Shown one piece after another: positions 8,509 through 62,923 of a stretch of DNA of 64,000 nt (positions are counted from its first letter, which is position 1; each line of letters starts with the position of its first letter). A program made the position numbers and the translations under genes. Below the pieces are notes generated by a model. The model ran no database searches. It saw nothing but the letters and a program-made list of their open reading frames with translations, and was not told where the DNA came from. Source of the stretch: Rhizobium sp. PDO1-076 (lineage in GTDB: Bacteria; Pseudomonadota; Alphaproteobacteria; Rhizobiales; Rhizobiaceae); the NCBI RefSeq assembly GCF_000247475.1, contig NZ_AHZC01000441.1, positions 1 through 64,000 of the forward strand. Reading direction: 5' to 3'.

Positions 8509-9834
8509 TTATTGGGGCAGGAGATCTTCTTCGATCGATCCGGATGCCTGCTCGACGCCGATATTGGCCTGCAGGGCCAGCTGCGCATCGCCATCCTTCT
8601 GGTAGATATCGTCGCGGAACTGCACCACCTGGTCCTTGGCCGACCACGCCGTGATGTAGACGATATAGACAGGCACTTCCTGGGCGAGCTTGATCGGATT
8701 GTTCTGGCGGGTCGTGATGACCCGTTCGATCTCCTGGCGCGACCAGCCGGGCGTATCACGCAACAGCCAGGTGACCAGGTCGCGAACGTTCTGAACACGC
8801 ATGCAGCCCGAGGATTCAAAGCGCATCAGCTTGTTGAACAGGCCCTGCTGGGGCGTATCGTGCATGTATTCGTTGTTCGGGTTGTGGAAGTTGATCTTCG
8901 TCGAGGACATGGCGTTGATCTTGCCAGGGTCCTGACGGAACATCAGGTTCGGTGCCTTCGGTGCAAACCAGTCGACGCTTTCCGGCGACACTTCCGTACC
9001 ATTGCCATCGATCAGGCGGATGTTGTTGCGCGTCAGATAAGTCGGGTCCTTCTGCATCAGCGGCACGATGTCCTTTTCGACAATCGAACGCGGCGCAGTC
9101 CAGTAAGGATTGAGAATGACTTCATAGATCTTCGAGTTGATCGTGTGGGTCGGACGGTCGATGCGGCCGACGACTGCGGTGTTGCGCAGCGCCACGCTGT
9201 CATTTTCCACCGCCTCGACATAGGCAGCCGGAATATTGACCATCAGATAGCGCGGACCGAGATCACCCGACATGGACTGCAGGCGAATGAGGTTGGTGTT
9301 CAACTGGTTGAGGCGAACATCGGCACTGACGTTCAAAGCCTTGATCGTGAACTCGCCGAGGACACCGTCTTCCGGCAGGCCGTGACGGGCCTGGAACCGT
9401 TTGACGGCACCGTCGACATAGCTGTCGAAAGAGTTCGACATGCCGGCTTCCTGCGGCAGATCTCCCGAAATCATCAGGCGCTGGCGCAAGGCCTGAACCG
9501 ACGGATCGGTGACGCCAAGACGCAGTTTGACCTGCGGATTGACGGCTGGCCAACCGCCATTCGATACGATCGCCTGGTATTGGGCGATCGCCTGCTGCAT
9601 GTTGGTGGCGCTGTTGCCGCTGATCATCGGCGTGTTGGAGGCAACCGCCGTGACCGTACGCGAGGCCTGGGCATCGAACTGGTCATCCCAGTTGCCGCGA
9701 CGTGGTGCATTGATCAGCTCATCAATAGCCGTCTGGGCCAAGGCCTGCCCCGCGATCGCCGCGACACTGACAGCTCCCGCGCCCCGCAGAAGCGATCGAC
9801 GCGAAAGATCAACAATTCCAGACTTTTTGGACAT
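8509..9834 (-). CDS. Tat-exported L,D-transpeptidase (YcbB/LdtD-like)
   Basis: 441 residues from the ATG at 9834, which has GGTAGGAA before it; an upstream ATG at 9873 would only lengthen a signal peptide. The N-terminus has a twin-arginine signal (SRRSLLRGAG, then a hydrophobic segment ending AGQALA). A peptidoglycan-binding domain follows at about 120-185 (DGAVKRFQARHGLPEDG), then a YkuD catalytic domain with the His of HDTPQQGLF and the Cys of FESSGCMRVQNV. It forms 3-3 cross-links in periplasmic peptidoglycan. The nearby MarR regulator matches LdtR, the known regulator of such a gene in Liberibacter and its relatives. The gene has its own terminator and an upstream region with inverted repeats. 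Confidence 0.9.
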   Translation of the reverse strand: MSKKSGIVDLSRRSLLRGAGAVSVAAIAGQALAQTAIDELINAPRRGNWDDQFDAQASRTVTAVASNTPMISGNSATNMQQAIAQYQAIVSNGGWPAVNPQVKLRLGVTDPSVQALRQRLMISGDLPQEAGMSNSFDSYVDGAVKRFQARHGLPEDGVLGEFTIKALNVSADVRLNQLNTNLIRLQSMSGDLGPRYLMVNIPAAYVEAVENDSVALRNTAVVGRIDRPTHTINSKIYEVILNPYWTAPRSIVEKDIVPLMQKDPTYLTRNNIRLIDGNGTEVSPESVDWFAPKAPNLMFRQDPGKINAMSSTKINFHNPNNEYMHDTPQQGLFNKLMRFESSGCMRVQNVRDLVTWLLRDTPGWSRQEIERVITTRQNNPIKLAQEVPVYIVYITAWSAKDQVVQFRDDIYQKDGDAQLALQANIGVEQASGSIEEDLLPQ

Positions 9835-10137
9835 ATTTCCTACCGTTTCGTTCTGACCCACATGGAAACGCATAGCGCGCCATGGTTAACAAAGAAGACG
9901 CTTTTTTCGTCAGATCGAGACGATCCACAGCGTCAGGCGGGGGCTTCAAGCCAGCCCGATTTTTCCACTCTGGCGGTCCCATATCAATATGGCCAATTCG
10001 TGTCAGGTACGCCGACTGTCACAACACTGTGTTCATGGCCGAAGCCACGCGATCTATATACGGCAAAACGGATGCTTCGCGGGAAGCATCCGTGTTTGGC
10101 GGTGGATCGCTTGCGCTGGAGGTGCGCTGGCCGTGCG
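9835..10137. promoter_or_regulatory. upstream region of the L,D-transpeptidase gene, with inverted repeats
   Basis: About 303 bases. Its left part holds two short perfect palindromes, CCATATCAATATGG at 9979-9992 and AACACTGTGTT near 10023-10033, possible operator sites. Its right part holds the ldtR terminator at 10069-10092. No gene is visible. Confidence 0.4.
10065..10092 (-). terminator. intrinsic terminator of ldtR
   Basis: A perfect 10-bp stem (CGGATGCTTC / GAAGCATCCG) with loop GCGG, followed on the minus strand by TTTTGCCG. It lies 45 bases past the ldtR stop. Confidence 0.85.
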
Positions 10138-10647
10138 TTAGAGACGATAGGCGATCGAGTCGTTCCAGAAACGATCGAGGCGCTGCAGCAGCTTGTTCAT
10201 TTCGGTGAATTCATCCGCACCGATGCCGCCGACCTTCTGGATCGAGCCCATGTGACGCTCATAAAGCTTGGCGACGGTCTCGGCGATTTCCTGGCCGCTC
10301 TCGGTCAGGCTGATGCGGACAGAGCGACGGTCGACACGCGAGCGCTGGTGATTGATGAAACCGAGGTCTACGAGCTTCTTGACGTTGTAGGAGACGTTCG
10401 AGCCGAGGTAATAACCGCGCGAGCGCAGTTCACCGGCGGTCAGTTCGGAATTGCCGATGTTGAACAGGAGAAGAGCCTGGACAGCGTTGATATCGCTGCG
10501 TCCCTTGCGGTCGAACTCATCCTTGATAACATCGAGAAGGCGGCGGTGGAGACGTTCCACCAGATGCAGGGACTCTAGGTAGAGCGAGCGGATTGCTTCT
10601 TCCTGCGGATCGAGAGTGGCCGGCTGTGGCTTGAGCTTGGTGTTCAT
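10138..10647 (-). CDS. ldtR: MarR-family regulator LdtR
   Basis: 169 residues from the ATG at 10647, with GTGAGGC upstream; the longer frame would use a GTG at 10662 that falls inside that ribosome site. The protein is a winged-helix MarR type: helical dimerisation segments at both ends and a central DNA-binding part (SELTAGELRSRGYYLGSNVS, then the wing RSRVDRRSVRISLT). Sequence and location next to the L,D-transpeptidase match LdtR described in Liberibacter asiaticus and its relatives, which controls that transpeptidase and stress tolerance. It is read separately from the transpeptidase because a strong hairpin divides them. Confidence 0.85.
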   Translation of the reverse strand: MNTKLKPQPATLDPQEEAIRSLYLESLHLVERLHRRLLDVIKDEFDRKGRSDINAVQALLLFNIGNSELTAGELRSRGYYLGSNVSYNVKKLVDLGFINHQRSRVDRRSVRISLTESGQEIAETVAKLYERHMGSIQKVGGIGADEFTEMNKLLQRLDRFWNDSIAYRL

Positions 10648-15319: not shown

Positions 15320-17314
15320 ATGGATTGCTCTATGCAGACGACCTTGCTCAAAGCAATTGAGGCCAGTTGGCCTCAGCGGCCGCAGGACGCTCCGACGGCG
15401 GAGCTGTATAACCTGTACCGGCGCCATATCGAGCCAAAGCGTGCCAGAGCGGCGCGCCAAGGCCTGTGGGTCGCCGTCATTGTCTATCTGCTGTTTGCGG
15501 TTACTGACATCATCCTGATTCCCGACGTTGCACGCGATACAATCGTGGCGCGATTCATGGTCGGGGCATCGGTTCTGACCGTTCTGGAAACGCTGGTCTG
15601 GTTTCGCGCGGGCGCCCGGTGGCTGGATATCACCTGCGCGGCAGCGCTGGTCACAGGCTATCTCTTCTGGCTCCTGCCGGCGGTGGCGACAACGGCAACC
15701 GAAAGCATCCGCTACTACATGATCTTCGGCACCATCTTCATGATGGGCGCCAACCTGTTCTTCAATTTCTTCGTGCTTTTGTCGGCGGTAACGTCCGCCT
15801 TCGTCCTGGTGATATTCTTCACTAGCATCCTGATGCTCTTCCCGACCGACATGCCCTATCTTGTCGCTTTCGGCACGTTCTACATTTCCTGCTTCATCTT
15901 CACGTCGTATGTGAACTGGAAGCTGAATGACGAGCGCTACAATGTCTTCCTGAACGCGCTGGAAGCACAGCACCAGCATCACGAGTCCGAGCAGCGCGGC
16001 AAGTCGCTGGAGCGACTCTCGAACACGGACTATCTGACCGGTATCGATAACCGCCGGGCGATCGACAAGAGGCTTCGCGACCTGTGGAATGCCTGGCACA
16101 ACGAAGGCACCGGATTTGCCGCAATCCTGGTCGATGTCGACTTCTTCAAGAAATACAATGATTTTTACGGTCACCAGGCAGGTGACCGTTGTTTGATTCT
16201 GGTTGCCAATGCGCTTCAGGAAGCACTGACGCCGTTCAACGCCTCGCTCGGCCGCTACGGCGGCGAGGAATTCATTGTTCTGGCGCAGATCGCCAAGCGG
16301 GACCAGGTCTCTTCGCTGGCGGAAATCATCCGCAGCACGGTCGAAAGACTGAACCTCGTGCATGACCAGCGTCGTGACGGACAGGCCGTCGTCACGGTCA
16401 GCGTTGGCGCATCCTATACCAGACCGAATTCAGGACCGAAGCTGGAGCGGATTATCGACGAGGCGGACCGGGCGCTCTATTCCGCCAAGGCGAACGGCCG
16501 CAACTGCATTCGCCTGTTCAACCCCGACGATCCGCTCAGCAGCGACGACAATGAAAATATTGCCTCCCTCTTGCGGATGGCGGTCAAGAAGGATCTTGTC
16601 AGGCTTGTCTATCAGCCGATCCAGAACCTGCAGACCGGCAAACTCGAGGCCGTCGAAGCGCTGATGCGCCTGCAGATGATCGACGGAACACCGATTTCAC
16701 CGGGCCAATTCATCCCGATCGCAGAGCGCACCGGCTCCATCCTGGAACTTGGCCTCTGGGCGATCCGCAGGGTCTGCACCGAAATGCTGGCGCCGGGCCA
16801 TGTTCCGCTTTCCAGCGTCAATGTCTCAGCCATCCAGCTCAAGTCGCGCGGCTTTGCACTCGCTGTCTCGACGATCCTCGAGGAGACTGGCGTCAAAGGC
16901 GAACGGCTTGCCTTCGAGATCACCGAAGGCATCGATATGGAAGGCCAGTCGGACGTCATTCGCTGTATCAAGGACCTGGAATCCATGGGCATCCGGATCT
17001 GGCTTGACGACTTCGGCACCGGCTTCGCCGGCCTTTCGTGGTTACGGCTGTTTCCCTTCGACACGGTCAAGATCGACCGTTCGTTCCTGCAGGATACAGA
17101 TCAGCCGCACGGTCGCTCCATGCTGGAAGACATCATCCGCCTGGTGCGCCACCGCGGCCACAAGATCCTCATCGAAGGGCTTGAAACGCCTGAGCATGTG
17201 GCCTTGATGCACGAACTCGGTATCGAGCATGGGCAAGGTTTCTATCTCGGACGACCGGCGCCGGTGACGGACTTCAGGGACTTGGCAAAGTTGCCGGCAG
17301 CCGTCGGACGCTGA
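15320..17314 (+). CDS. membrane GGDEF-EAL protein (c-di-GMP synthesis and hydrolysis)
   Basis: 664 residues. About 45-205 is a membrane region of roughly six helices, then a short coiled linker, a GGDEF domain (about 235-395) and an EAL domain (about 410-655). The cyclase site RYGGEEF is intact near residue 311. The phosphodiesterase residues also look complete: EALMR near 446, NVSAIQL, EITE, LDDFGTGF, VKIDRSF, EGLETPEH and GQGFYLG. Both activities are therefore possible. The membrane part is not a named sensor domain that I recognise. The ATG at 15320 has GGAG upstream; a second ATG lies four codons later. It is monocistronic, closed by a terminator at 17356. Confidence 0.9.
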   Translation: MDCSMQTTLLKAIEASWPQRPQDAPTAELYNLYRRHIEPKRARAARQGLWVAVIVYLLFAVTDIILIPDVARDTIVARFMVGASVLTVLETLVWFRAGARWLDITCAAALVTGYLFWLLPAVATTATESIRYYMIFGTIFMMGANLFFNFFVLLSAVTSAFVLVIFFTSILMLFPTDMPYLVAFGTFYISCFIFTSYVNWKLNDERYNVFLNALEAQHQHHESEQRGKSLERLSNTDYLTGIDNRRAIDKRLRDLWNAWHNEGTGFAAILVDVDFFKKYNDFYGHQAGDRCLILVANALQEALTPFNASLGRYGGEEFIVLAQIAKRDQVSSLAEIIRSTVERLNLVHDQRRDGQAVVTVSVGASYTRPNSGPKLERIIDEADRALYSAKANGRNCIRLFNPDDPLSSDDNENIASLLRMAVKKDLVRLVYQPIQNLQTGKLEAVEALMRLQMIDGTPISPGQFIPIAERTGSILELGLWAIRRVCTEMLAPGHVPLSSVNVSAIQLKSRGFALAVSTILEETGVKGERLAFEITEGIDMEGQSDVIRCIKDLESMGIRIWLDDFGTGFAGLSWLRLFPFDTVKIDRSFLQDTDQPHGRSMLEDIIRLVRHRGHKILIEGLETPEHVALMHELGIEHGQGFYLGRPAPVTDFRDLAKLPAAVGR

Positions 17315-35197: not shown

Positions 35198-36719
35198 TTA
35201 TTCGAACCTGAAGCTCAGGCGCTTGCCGGTCAGCTTGGCAAGCTGTTGCAGACGGCCATCGAGACGTTCGCCGGCAAAATCGAAATAAGCGTGCGGAACG
35301 ACGAATTCGAGATCGACATCCGGCCGCGTGGAACGCTGGAAGCGCAGATTGTGCACGACGCCCGGCATTGAGGCCGAGAAGAGATAGACGACGCGCAGCA
35401 TGCCGCCGAGCAGTTTGGCGCGTTCCAGCAGGCGTTCGGTTGCGATTGCAGCCAGCGGACCGGTACGGCCGTCGTCATACAGACCTTCGAAGCGGTAGTA
35501 GTTGGTCAAGGCGATGAAGGCGCGGCCCGGATGCGTGATGCCAACGAAGGACGAATGCGCGATGACGTTGAGCGCCTGCAGTCCGCGATAGTCCGGATGG
35601 GCACGCCAGCTGATATCGGCAAGCAGGCAGGCGGCCTGACGATAACGCGCATCCTCTTCCGTCTCGACAACGTCGAAATGCGGCATCATCTGCCCGGTCC
35701 AGTCGGCCAGTTCCCGTGCATGTTCCGGGGAACGGGCACGCAGGATCGCCAGTTCGTCGGCCGCCTCGACCAGAGGGTCGAGCGCCTTTTCGTCGTCCGG
35801 CAACAGCGAATAGAGATAGCCTTCGCGCACGCCTTGCGCCGAGAAGCAGACGCTTTTCGGCTTCATGACTTCGATCACCTCGCGCAAGGCGACCGCGCCG
35901 AAAGGGATGAGCGTGCGGCGGTTCTTGGAAATGCTCGTCCAGGCCGGATCACGGCTGTTGGCACCGCTGATGATTTCCTCGAGGAAGAAGGCAACCTCGT
36001 CATAGGGCAGCTCGTAGCCCTGCATCATGTGCAGCGGATATTTACGAATCTCCATATGCAGCTTGGCAATGTTGCGCCACGTGCCGCCGACCGCATAAAA
36101 GGTTCGCCCCTGGCCTTTCTGGAGGAGCTGTGCGTCGGCCACCAGCTTCTTGGCATGAACTCTCGCCTTCGGTAGCCGATCCCCCCACCGTCTCGGAGAG
36201 GCGCAGACCGCCGAGCGGGAGCGTGATACCCTTGCCGAATTCTCGGCCGCGGATGTCGATCAGTTCGAGCGAGCCGCCGCCCAGGTCGCCAGCGATGCCG
36301 TCGGCAAAGTGAAAACCGCTGATGATGCCGAGCGCCGAATAGAGCGCCTCTTCCTCGCCGCTCAAAACCTGGATCTCATGGCCGAGGATGGCTTCAGCGC
36401 GCGCAATGAAATCGGCGCCGTTGGACGCATCGCGGGCGGCGGCAGTTGCCAGGACATACATCCGGCTCGCCTGCGCCTGCTTGGACAGCGCATTGAAGCG
36501 CCGCAGTGCCAGCAGGGCGCGCTCGACGCCTTCCTGGTCCATGCGACCGGTGGTGGCCAAACCTTTCCCAAGCCCGCACAGAACCTTTTCATTGAAAAGA
36601 ACCGTGGGGGCGCGTGCCAATCCCTCATAGACCACGAGGCGGATCGAGTTGGATCCGATGTCGACAACGGAAACAGGGGCGATACCGGGTAGACGCCCCC
36701 GTGCTTCAGATCTTGTCAT
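35198..36719 (-). pseudogene. ppx: Exopolyphosphatase, broken by a +1 frameshift in a six-base homopolymer
   Basis: The minus strand encodes an exopolyphosphatase/GppA enzyme in two frames. The first frame (36719 down to about 36181) gives the N-terminal actin-like domain with VVDIGSNSIRLVVYE, LATAAARDASNG and GDLGGGSLELIDI. The second (about 36186 down to 35198) gives the rest, with GRTFYAVGGTWRNIAKLH and a C-terminal HD-like domain. Removing one base from the run of six C at 36181-36186 (G on the coding strand) joins them through GGLRLSETVGDRLPKARVHA into a normal protein of about 506 residues. It lies 12 bases after ppk, so the operon is intact. As given, translation ends 225 residues in, after a nonsense tail. 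It may be a sequencing error, a true mutation or a phase-variable tract. Confidence 0.88.
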
Positions 36720-36731
36720 GAAGTTCCAGTT

Positions 36732-38924
36732 TTATCGTTTCCTGCCGGAAATCAGGCCGGCGATCAGTTTCGGTGCGCTCGATTTCAACGCTTCACCCCG
36801 ACCCGACAGGCTTGGGTTGGTCATGAAATACTGTTGCGCGTTGAAAGGTTCCTCACCTTGCCGCACCTCAATGCGGCGAGACGTGCCATCGGCCAATATC
36901 TCGTAGCTCTGCTGATTGTCAATCAGATTGCCCAGCATGATCTGGGACAAAACCTGCTCATGCACGGTCGGGTTGATCAGCGGCACAAGCGTTTCAACGC
37001 GCCGGTCGAGATTGCGCGGCATCATGTCGGCCGAGCCGATATAGACAAGCGCCTTTTCCGACGGCAGGCGATGGCCATGGCCAAAGCAAAAGATGCGGCT
37101 GTGCTCGAGGAAGCGGCCGACGATGGATTTCACCCGGATATTTTCCGACAGACCCGGAACCTGCGGCCGCAGGCAGCAGATGCCGCGAATGACCAGGTCG
37201 ACCTCGACGCCCGCCTTGCTTGCCCGGTAGAGCGCATCGATGATTTCGGGGTCGACGAGCGAATTCATCTTCATCCAGATGCCGGCCGGCAGACCGTTGC
37301 GGGCGTTCTGGGTTTCCTCCTCGATATGGCGGAGAATGCGTGGACGAAGCGTGTAGGGCGACACCGCCAGCTTCATGCTTTCTTCCGGCTCGCCGTATCC
37401 GGTGATGAAGTTGAAGATATTCGCCATGTCATGGGCAATCTTCGGATTGCAGGTGAAGAAGGACAGGTCGGTATAGATCTTCGCCGTGACCGGGTGGTAG
37501 TTGCCGGTGCCGAGATGGCAATAGGTGCGCAGCTTGCCGTCCTCGCGGCGCACGACCATCGACATCTTGGCGTGGGTCTTCAGTTCGATGAAACCGAAGA
37601 CGACCTGCACGCCGGCGCGCTCCAGGTCGCGGGCCCAGCGGATATTGGCCTCTTCGTCGAAACGGGCCTTGAGCTCGACCAATGCGGTGACCGACTTTCC
37701 GGCATCGGCCGCATCGATCAGAGCTCGGACGATCGGGCTGTCATTGGAGGTTCGGTAGAGTGTCTGCTTGATCGCCAGCACATCCGGATCACGGGCCGCC
37801 TGCAGCAAGAACTGCACGACGACGTCGAAGCTCTCATAAGGGTGATGAACGATCATGTCCTTTTCGCGGATTGCCGCTAGGCAGTCACCCGCATGCTCGC
37901 GCACGCGCTCCGGGAAACGGGCATTGTAGGGTTCGAAACGCAGATCCTCGCGCGGCGCCTTGCAGATTTCGGTAATGGTGTTGAGCGCCAGGAGACCGGG
38001 CAGAACGGCGACGCGATTGTCCGGCACATTCAACTCATGCACGACGAACTGGCGCAGCGCGACCGGCATCTCGCTGTCGACCTCAATTCGAATGACCGAA
38101 CCGCGCCGGCGACGCTTCAGGGCGGTCTCGAAAAATCGGACCAGATCTTCCGCCTCTTCCTCGACTTCGATGTCGCTGTCGCGGATGATGCGGAATGTGC
38201 CGAAACCCTTGACCTCGTAGCCGGGATAAAGCCTGTTGATGAACAGGCCGACGACGTCCTCCAGCGTGATGTAGCGGATCGTCTGGCCCTGATCCTGCAG
38301 CCGAATAAAGCGATCGAGCGTGGGTGGGAGGCGCAACAGAGCCGTCATCGGCTCACCCGTACGGCTGCTGGCCAGTTGAAGTCCCATGGAGAAACCGAGA
38401 TTGGGAATGAAGGGGAATGGATGGGCCGGATCGATCGACAGCGGCGTCAGAACAGGGAATATCGAATCCTCGAATGTATTAGCCAGCCAGTTGCGATCTT
38501 CGTCCGACAGAGCGGCCGGGCGCACCACCAGAATTTCTTCTTGCGCCAAATACTGCTGAAGCACGGCAAGTGATGCCTGCTGTTCCATCTGCAGGTTGTC
38601 GATTTCCTTCAGGATGTCATTCAGCTGCTCGGCCGGCGTCTTGCCGTCGGGGCTCCTGATGGTGATGTTCTGACGCACCTGCCCTTCGAGCCCGGCGACA
38701 CGCACCATGAAGAACTCATCGAGATTGGCCGCCGAAATCGACAGGAAACGGACACGCTCCAGCAGCGGATGCGCGGTGTTGAGGGTTTCTTCGAGAACGC
38801 GCCGGTTGAACTGCAGCCACGAGAATTCACGGTTGATGAAACGCAGCGGGCTGGTCATCAGGTCGTCCGAGGTAAGCGCCTCAGCTTCGACGTGGCCGTC
38901 CATCTCGTTCACCACAGAGTCCAT
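36732..38924 (-). CDS. ppk: Polyphosphate kinase 1
   Basis: 730 residues from the ATG at 38924, with AAGGGACGGG upstream; a longer frame to 39182 overlaps hdaA and is not family sequence. It makes polyphosphate from ATP. The N-terminal domain begins [19 protein letters not shown]. The phosphorylated histidine is in HLGTGNYH, and the second phospholipase D-like site is in FCFGHG and YIGSADMM. ppx follows 12 bases downstream, the classical synthesis/degradation pair, although ppx is frameshifted here. A gap of about 65 bases separates it from hdaA upstream. Confidence 0.96.
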
Positions 38925-38988
38925 AGTCCCGTCCCTTCGTTCTTGTTTCCTGGCCGAATATAACAGTTTGACGACAGATCTGTGACAT

Positions 38989-39702
38989 CTACCCTTCGTC
39001 GGTCGTGGCCTCGAGCGCTCCGAGCACTTCGGCTGCCAGGCTGCGCGTGATGCGCGCGCGGCGGGCAAGCGCCAGTTTGTCCAGTCGATCGACAATCTCC
39101 TGCGCCGCCGAAAACGACCGTTCCATTCGCTGAACGATATAGCTGACGATCTTGTCATCGATGTAAAGCTGCCGGTCGGCAAACAGCTTCATGATGACCT
39201 GCCCGAGCAGATCCTCGTCAGGTGTTCCGATCTCGACCACGGTTGCCGCCTTGAGGCGCGATCGAAGGTCGGCAAGCGTGACGTTCCACGAAGGCGGAAA
39301 GCTGCGTGAGGTGATCAGCAGCGTGGTGCCATGCTGCTTGACGCTGTTGATGACATGGAAAAGCTCGACCTCATCGAAACCCTGGCGGTCGGCATCCTCG
39401 AAAACCACCGGGCCGAGCGCCGCAACCGCCGGCGCATCGCGCCCCGGCTGTGGATCAATGTCAACGGCTCCGCTCTGCTGGCGAAAGATCTCGGCGAGGT
39501 GCGACTTTCCCGACCCGGCAGGACCGGTCAGCACCACGACGGGTGCCGGCCAGGCTGGCCAGCTGTCGATCAGGGCAACGGCAGCAGCCAGGCGCTCGGA
39601 CACAAGAAGGTCGTCGCGGCCGGTCGCCGATCCATGGTCGAAGACAAGCGGCAATTGTTCTGCGGCGCCGCGCCGCTCTGTGGGCTTCCTGACGTCAGCC
39701 AT
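38989..39702 (-). CDS. hdaA: HdaA, DnaA-related regulator of replication initiation
   Basis: 237 residues. An AAA+ protein that with the loaded beta clamp inactivates DnaA-ATP. The clamp-binding motif QLPLVF lies at about residue 16; the Walker A is [12 protein letters not shown]; the DnaA-like C-terminal part includes [15 protein letters not shown] and the sensor 2-type helix [14 protein letters not shown]. Its ATG directly abuts the perM stop (TAAATG), so the two are translated together. The pairing of a PerM-type gene with hdaA and the nearby purMN block is a common alphaproteobacterial arrangement. Confidence 0.9.
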
Positions 39703-61734: not shown

Positions 61735-61870
61735 CGACGGTCAGGATAAAGGCTGCAAAGAATGGATTAACCGCGTTTATCTACAGACAGGCGAACTTAA
61801 CCTTTCGCACAACCAAACGTCCGATAGTCGCGCCCATCAAACGGACAGTGTCTAAACGGAAGAGGTCGTG

Positions 61871-62923
61871 ATGGAAGGGGCAAACCAGCAGGCGCAAGCG
61901 CGTTCCGGCGTAGCGGCGGGTGATCCATTGGCGAAGATTGCGTCCTTCATGGCGCGCCATGGCATAGCCGGTCTGCCGCGCAATTTCGACATCGTGCACG
62001 AAGCCTTCGGCGGTCAAAATCCCGAACTCGCCCGCGAGCTTGCAGCGCTCGGCGCCCAACCCAGCCAATATGGTCTCGACCAGCTCGGCCTGAAGCACCG
62101 GCTAGCCGGCCATTGCGGCATGCAGGCGGAACGCCTGCAATCGGAGGCGCTGACGACCCTGTCGCGGATCAAGGAGCAGATTGCACTTGGCCTGACCCAG
62201 AAACGCAGTTTTGCCCGATCCGTGGAGACCGTTGCACGCGCCATCAAGGAAGATCTGAACCAGGGCATCGACCAGTTGTTGGGCGAACTCGACCTGTTGT
62301 CATCGGTCGCGACCCAGATGGTCAATGCGGAAACCCTGTTGGCCAATGAGATCGCAGCAGGCATCGATGTTCTGACGCAGGCAGACCGGGCGGCACGCGC
62401 GGCGAAGGGTCTGGCTCTGCGCGATCGGCTGACGGGCCTGCCGAACAGGGTTGCCTTCTTCCAGCAACTTGACGGCGTCTATGGTGTGGACAGTACCAGT
62501 GCTGCCCTAATCCTGATCGAGGTCCCCGACCTTGCCGGCATCCAGCAGCAATATGGCGAAGAGGCCGCAACCAAGCTGATCAAAAAGCTCGCAACGATCT
62601 TCCGCAAGACGATCAAGAAACATGACTATGTGGCCCGCATCGAGATTGGCACCTTTGCCTTCCTGTTTTCCGATGTCAGCGCGGATGACGCCCATGTCAT
62701 TGCCGAGCGGCTCTATAGCGCGGCCGAAAACAACCTCGTATTCGCCACGGAAAACAGCAATGACGCTGGCGGTCTCGCCCTGGCAATCGGCCATGCGCTG
62801 AGCACCGATACGCAGGACGGGCTACAATTGCTGGCGCTGGCGGAGACAGCCGTACAGATGGCCCGCGTCAATCCGCGCCAGCCGATCATTGGTCATCGCC
62901 CTGCAGGGCGGCGGGTGGCCTGA
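61871..62923 (+). CDS. degenerate GGDEF-domain protein
   Basis: 350 residues from the ATG at 61871 (a GTG directly before it is the alternative), with AGAGG upstream. An N-terminal helical region (about 1-180) contains coiled stretches (ALTTLSRIKEQIALGL and similar) and is followed by a GGDEF fold with DRLTGLPNRVAFFQ intact. The catalytic GGDEF loop reads RIEIGTFAF near residue 256, so the signature Gly-Gly-Asp/Glu-Glu-Phe is lost and cyclase activity is unlikely. It may bind GTP or c-di-GMP as an adaptor. The frame ends 55 bases before an ABC-F gene. Confidence 0.8.
   Translation: MEGANQQAQARSGVAAGDPLAKIASFMARHGIAGLPRNFDIVHEAFGGQNPELARELAALGAQPSQYGLDQLGLKHRLAGHCGMQAERLQSEALTTLSRIKEQIALGLTQKRSFARSVETVARAIKEDLNQGIDQLLGELDLLSSVATQMVNAETLLANEIAAGIDVLTQADRAARAAKGLALRDRLTGLPNRVAFFQQLDGVYGVDSTSAALILIEVPDLAGIQQQYGEEAATKLIKKLATIFRKTIKKHDYVARIEIGTFAFLFSDVSADDAHVIAERLYSAAENNLVFATENSNDAGGLALAIGHALSTDTQDGLQLLALAETAVQMARVNPRQPIIGHRPAGRRVA

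Follow-up and report, generated by a model that had tools for sequence, protein, structure and literature searches.

One extra base, beside a run of six C and not within it, shifts the reading frame of the ppk-adjacent ppx gene of Rhizobium sp. PDO1-076, and does so in this draft assembly alone. An artefact of the draft is the likeliest explanation; otherwise it would be a very recent loss private to this strain. The gene was analyzed in a window of 64,000 nucleotides (the whole stretch of DNA examined), which comes from a draft genome (G000) of 441 contigs, 5.50 Mb and 94.3% completeness. The coordinates of the features are given in Table 1.

Table 1. Features of the ppk-ppx region in the window
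Feature	Position	Strand	Remarks
ppx (ppx2-type), in-frame 5' part	36177..36719	-	181 codons, last residues V-G-G-S
Extra-base site, CC against a single base in the relatives aligned	36176..36177	-	Nucleotide alignment
Six-C run (G6 in gene sense), in frame, not the lesion	36181..36186	+	Identical run in intact L241
ppx remainder, other frame	35198..36175	-	326 codons including stop; rest of Ppx-GppA and Ppx_C
Intact ppk (polyphosphate kinase 1), immediately upstream of ppx	36732..39182	-	ORF

Position of the extra base

In the assembly ppx is divided between two minus-strand ORFs in different frames, 36719-36042 (225 aa) and 36142-35198 (314 aa), which are both open and overlap by 101 bases. 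The ORFs confirmed what the initial annotation had described here, namely the six C, an exopolyphosphatase frame that is open on either side in different frames, and an intact neighbouring ppk, whose true start probably lies inside its ORF. Past codon 181 the first ppx ORF runs out of frame until the stop at 36042-36044. When the two pieces were searched separately against Pfam, the N-terminal piece matched positions 2-153 of PF02541 (Ppx-GppA), and the C-terminal piece matched positions 182-283 of the same family and positions 1-186 of the 187 of PF21697 (Ppx_C). Both domains of the long-form Ppx/GppA phosphatases are present in the window gene, and the continuous frame expected of these enzymes is lost after codon 181. 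Residues 2-185 and 198-508 of the putative exopolyphosphatase in PDB entry 3hi0 align along the two pieces, although the 508-residue chain of that protein is continuous, without a break. A phytase-like esterase gene (PF13449, 33702-35120) lies tail to tail with ppx.

The frame break reported in the initial annotation is present in the sequence, but the extra base is not in the C run to which it had been assigned. Read in gene sense, the window has GTG GGG GGA TCG G CTA CCG AAG where Rhizobium sp. 18065 (L004) has GTG GGC GGA TCG CTG CCG AAG. This codon-wise comparison indicates that the run is in frame and encodes V-G-G-S as in L004, from which it differs by one synonymous third-position change; the shift sets in only past the Ser codon, where the doubled base comes next. 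When the region was aligned collinearly, at 91-92% identity, the same single gap was found at the CC pair of Table 1, which is one base in all three relatives aligned. Single bases were also omitted in turn from a 55-base stretch compared with L004: the best sites, at the CC pair, left 6 mismatches, and the two run positions among the 12 sites listed left 10 each. Moreover, the gene is intact in the close relative L241 (genome G071, 3 contigs), where the identical run of six is followed by one base less and the frame stays open over 510 aa. The six-C run was therefore rejected as the lesion on the basis of the in-frame V-G-G-S, the alignment gap, the omission scan and L241. The sequence V-G-D-R-L-P-K, obtained by deleting a base of the run and taken earlier for a conserved junction, is not what the relatives listed for this motif carry, since they have Gly or Asn followed by Ser at that place (Gly-Ser in 3hi0), with Gly-Ala in L024/L107 as the exception. 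Runs of six C are rarer in the window than expected, with 2 observed against a mean of 37.9 in shuffled sequences.

Reading frame in relatives and selection behind the break

With the N-terminal piece as query, 57 of the 59 other genomes of a genus sample of 60 that included the window's own yielded an ortholog whose frame is open over 510 aa or more. Of the two exceptions, G004 (66% complete) has the gene truncated by the end of its contig, while G018 (76% complete) has only a distant family member, without an ortholog. The C-terminal piece matched in 58 genomes of an earlier set of 60, made up of the window's own, 35 other members of the genus and 24 from the order. The nearest titled loci by the C part of Ppx, among the best 80 of 145 loci, belonged to Rhizobium sp. 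18065 (97%), a Rhizobiales isolate (93%) and Peteryoungia aggregata (88%). No relative examined whose ppx is complete showed a broken frame. The comparison with homologous ppx genes of related strains, proposed in the initial annotation, thus found their frames intact and the break private to the window's assembly. A conserved frameshift was rejected, the frames of the relatives being open, and a frame transition conserved among homologs, as expected of programmed frameshifting, was absent from the relatives examined.

Behind the break there is no internal stop. Over this segment, comparison of the window with L004 shows 52 synonymous and 9 non-synonymous codon differences (6, 3 and 55 differences at the three codon positions), and comparison with L241 shows 28 and 3, respectively. 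With L004 taken as the outgroup to the window and L241, strictly polarised codons placed 9 synonymous changes and no non-synonymous one on the window's side, and 15 and 3, respectively, on the side of L241 (L004 agreeing with the window). In the comparison with L004, with L005 as outgroup, the strictly polarised codons gave 18 synonymous and 0 non-synonymous changes; the amino-acid count behind the break was 3 changes on the window's side and 5 on that of L004. These counts indicate that the segment behind the break has been under purifying selection until very recently, or still is, which points either to an assembly error, the favoured reading, or to a very recent break. An old pseudogene was rejected, given the lack of internal stops and, among strictly polarised codons, the absence of non-synonymous changes against 9 synonymous ones on the window's side; neither relaxed selection nor further damage, as expected of an established pseudogene, was found behind the break.

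Sequencing error, recent loss and other readings

The ppx frameshift is rather probably a sequencing or assembly error in a working gene. The cell would then have a functional ppx, and the extra base, we infer, would be absent from it. This reading is favoured because the source is a draft of 441 contigs, the relatives are intact and selection continued behind the break. According to the available text of a study of 1106 complete genomes (PMC3711429), isolated frameshifts validated by BLASTp are expected to be sequencing errors and not genuine indels, while for frameshifts confirmed by Pfam too both error and indel are left possible. Carry-forward and incomplete-extension errors occur in 454-type sequencing (PMC3116506, available text), and if such a platform was used, errors of this kind would fit an extra base slightly beyond a run of the same base; this is only a lead. 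The position of the extra base in a two-base run, and not in a long homopolymer, counts against an error.

A real, very recent and private loss of the ppk-adjacent Ppx2 in this strain is a tentative second reading, and one of some weight. The product would consist of 181 native residues followed by 44 foreign ones, the remainder of the enzyme being missing. A private single-base change without decay behind it fits a recent mutation as well, and a second gene, hydantoinase-A-like and on contig C8 of G000, is broken in the same genome. Natural strains carry some pseudogenes, and the rate of breaks observed (2 broken against 246 intact genes, see below) is so low that ordinary pseudogenes could explain this one. 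On the other hand, ppx is intact in 57 of the 59 other genomes of the genus, and behind the break the window's side shows 9 synonymous changes and no non-synonymous one: as a rough estimate with a neutral ratio of about 2.7, ppx would have been in the broken state for at most about one eighth of the time since its lineage diverged from L241. Of the options offered in the initial annotation, an assembly or sequencing error is thus preferred, recent loss in the strain stands behind it, and the slip-site switch is not supported.

The indel load of the draft was estimated by comparing about 1.04 Mb of the genome with about 1.40 Mb of a relative (G006), 254,590 bases of the former being aligned. 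An initial tblastn survey returned 14 apparent splits for the window's genome and 7 for G006; a wider one returned 26 and 15. When codon-position bias was required of the main piece only, 8 and 0 were left; when it was required on both sides of the break, 2 broken coding genes stood against 246 intact ones in the window's genome and 0 against 267 in G006, intact counts that may include overlapping ORFs (208 and 215 non-overlapping full-length ORFs, respectively, without the codon test). Eight apparent-split sites were inspected by eye and several of them were judged to be gene ends or starts. A Pfam search of the ORFs at apparent splits other than the hydantoinase pair, with two ORFs in L233 left out, found a family in 1 of 7 ORFs of the relative and 0 of 7 of the window's genome, and in that single case (AstE/AspA, L197) the domain, residues 112-324, lies wholly past the apparent break near 52. 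A listing of isolated one-base gaps had 44 rows, of which one, at the edge of an alignment, was empty. The draft did not prove to be full of indels, only 2 breaks being left in the window's genome after the two-sided codon test.

The second of these breaks, in the hydantoinase-A-like gene (C8, L131, near 10168), is a difference of one base from G006, with residues 1-373 followed by residues 372-525 in another frame. It shortens the Hydantoinase_A match in Pfam from 199-396 to 199-367, and in a genome search the two pieces, 1-373 and 371-525, were found apart. The two breaks have near-identical G-run contexts, GGTGGGGGGATCGG and GGTGGGGGATCGG, a likeness that was noticed afterwards. The pattern GGTGGGG+ATCGG occurs at three places in the 1.04 Mb fetched, and a whole-genome search of this context gave six further places with one mismatch. 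The two like contexts would fit a context-dependent error and prove nothing.

Some other features were observed in these comparisons. Near the hydantoinase-A-like gene, at C8:4153-5685, lies a second relative, which is 52% identical and has an open frame of 518 aa. An ORF without a Pfam family (window 8512-10578) differs from G006 by one base near 10128, immediately ahead of the relative's stop, and consequently continues for about 150 codons more. At 61735-61871 the window has 0.14 kb where G006 has about 2.2 kb (C8 103324-105566), an insertion or deletion. Near 3498 of L133 (G000:C10), a run of eight T leads into one of ten G, which is the longest among the G runs listed.

It is very unlikely that changes in length of the G6/C6 run switch the gene on and off by phase variation, or that slippage of RNA polymerase or the ribosome partly restores the frame. 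Three bases separate the end of the G6 run from the doubled base in gene sense, and a change in the length of the run could therefore restore the later frame. The indel is, however, in the CC pair outside the run, L241 has the same run in frame in an intact gene, and a junction produced by a change in run length would be without the usual Ser. The motif was found in 107 of 113 loci (the six without it include the paralog L001); within the 107, the six-base run occurred only in the three loci of the window's own genome, and in the 104 from other genomes, some of which are represented twice, the longest G/C run was 2-4. L241, with its six-base run and intact frame, lies outside those 113 loci. 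Six bases are also below the seven-base repeat minimum used in PMC3711429 (available text). The window thus resembles phase-variable slipped-strand genes in having a short G/C run near its break, but differs from them in that the length change is outside the simple repeat, the tract is not kept and variable in length in relatives, and the relatives examined keep one frame. Among titles and the beginnings of abstracts retrieved for ppx with phase variation, homopolymeric tract or frameshift, none concerned a slip-site ppx. The proposal that the run is a slip site switching polyphosphate metabolism fails because the run is not the lesion, and complete relatives are unbroken. Still less credible is a real extra base with G6 slippage restoring some full-length Ppx2, which would act as a crude on/off control of a GppA-like stringent-response step.

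That the two halves are separate polypeptides working together, the second made by re-initiation, is highly improbable: the ORFs are open and overlap, and the in-frame ATGs of the second, one at 36055, 8 bases ahead of the first stop (36044-36042), and two shortly behind that stop, at 36028 and 36025, are close enough to it to make re-initiation possible in principle, but no relative examined has a split arrangement, a re-initiated piece would be missing still more of the Ppx-GppA domain, and there is no sign of selection for such a piece.

Identity of the gene and meaning of the break

In Agrobacterium sp. ATCC 31749 ppx2 (AGRO_2552) adjoins ppk (AGRO_2553), and these consecutive locus tags, given in the available text of PMC3293034, point to the same ppk-ppx neighbourhood as in the window, where the ppx copy differs by its frameshift in this assembly. 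The two ppx2 primers used in that study both match inside the window gene, with 4/20 mismatches each (35696, plus strand; 36092, minus strand), whereas the best window sites of the ppx1 primers, with 5/20 and 4/19 mismatches, are outside it. Elsewhere in the genome, in L158, which holds its other Ppx/GppA gene, the ppx1 primers match that gene with 0/20 (forward) and 2/19 (reverse) mismatches. From ppk adjacency and primer matches, the window gene is thus identified as the ppx2 ortholog, and a predicted ppx1 ortholog is located in L158. The latter (15721-16968, G000:C44) runs into the contig end, with a frame of 422 aa against 516-686 aa for matches in the sampled genus genomes; its neighbour is presumably an RlmE-like gene.

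In ATCC 31749, according to the available text of PMC3293034, a ppx2 knockout did not raise polyphosphate during growth, lowered stationary-phase curdlan by nearly 98% and reduced viability; PPX2 was proposed from the knockouts to act on pppGpp rather than polyphosphate, and exopolyphosphatase activity was credited to ppx1. By analogy, a GppA role is probable for the window gene. The suggestion that the strain may be unable to degrade polyphosphate by Ppx is therefore doubtful, since the broken gene is orthologous to ppx2 and not to ppx1, which has an ortholog elsewhere. A real break would not alone mean lost polyphosphate degradation, and a disturbed (p)ppGpp balance would be the better guess. 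In Rhizobium leguminosarum a ppx, for which two locus tags are given, is among the genes required for root attachment (PMC11406972, available text).

The main value of these results is one of correction, as the comparison with relatives shifts the lesion a few bases off the C6 run and so removes the basis for a switch. Users of the draft should not call the strain Ppx-negative from this assembly, and the ppk-adjacent ppx of Rhizobiaceae should not be assumed, without a test, to be the main polyphosphate-degrading enzyme.
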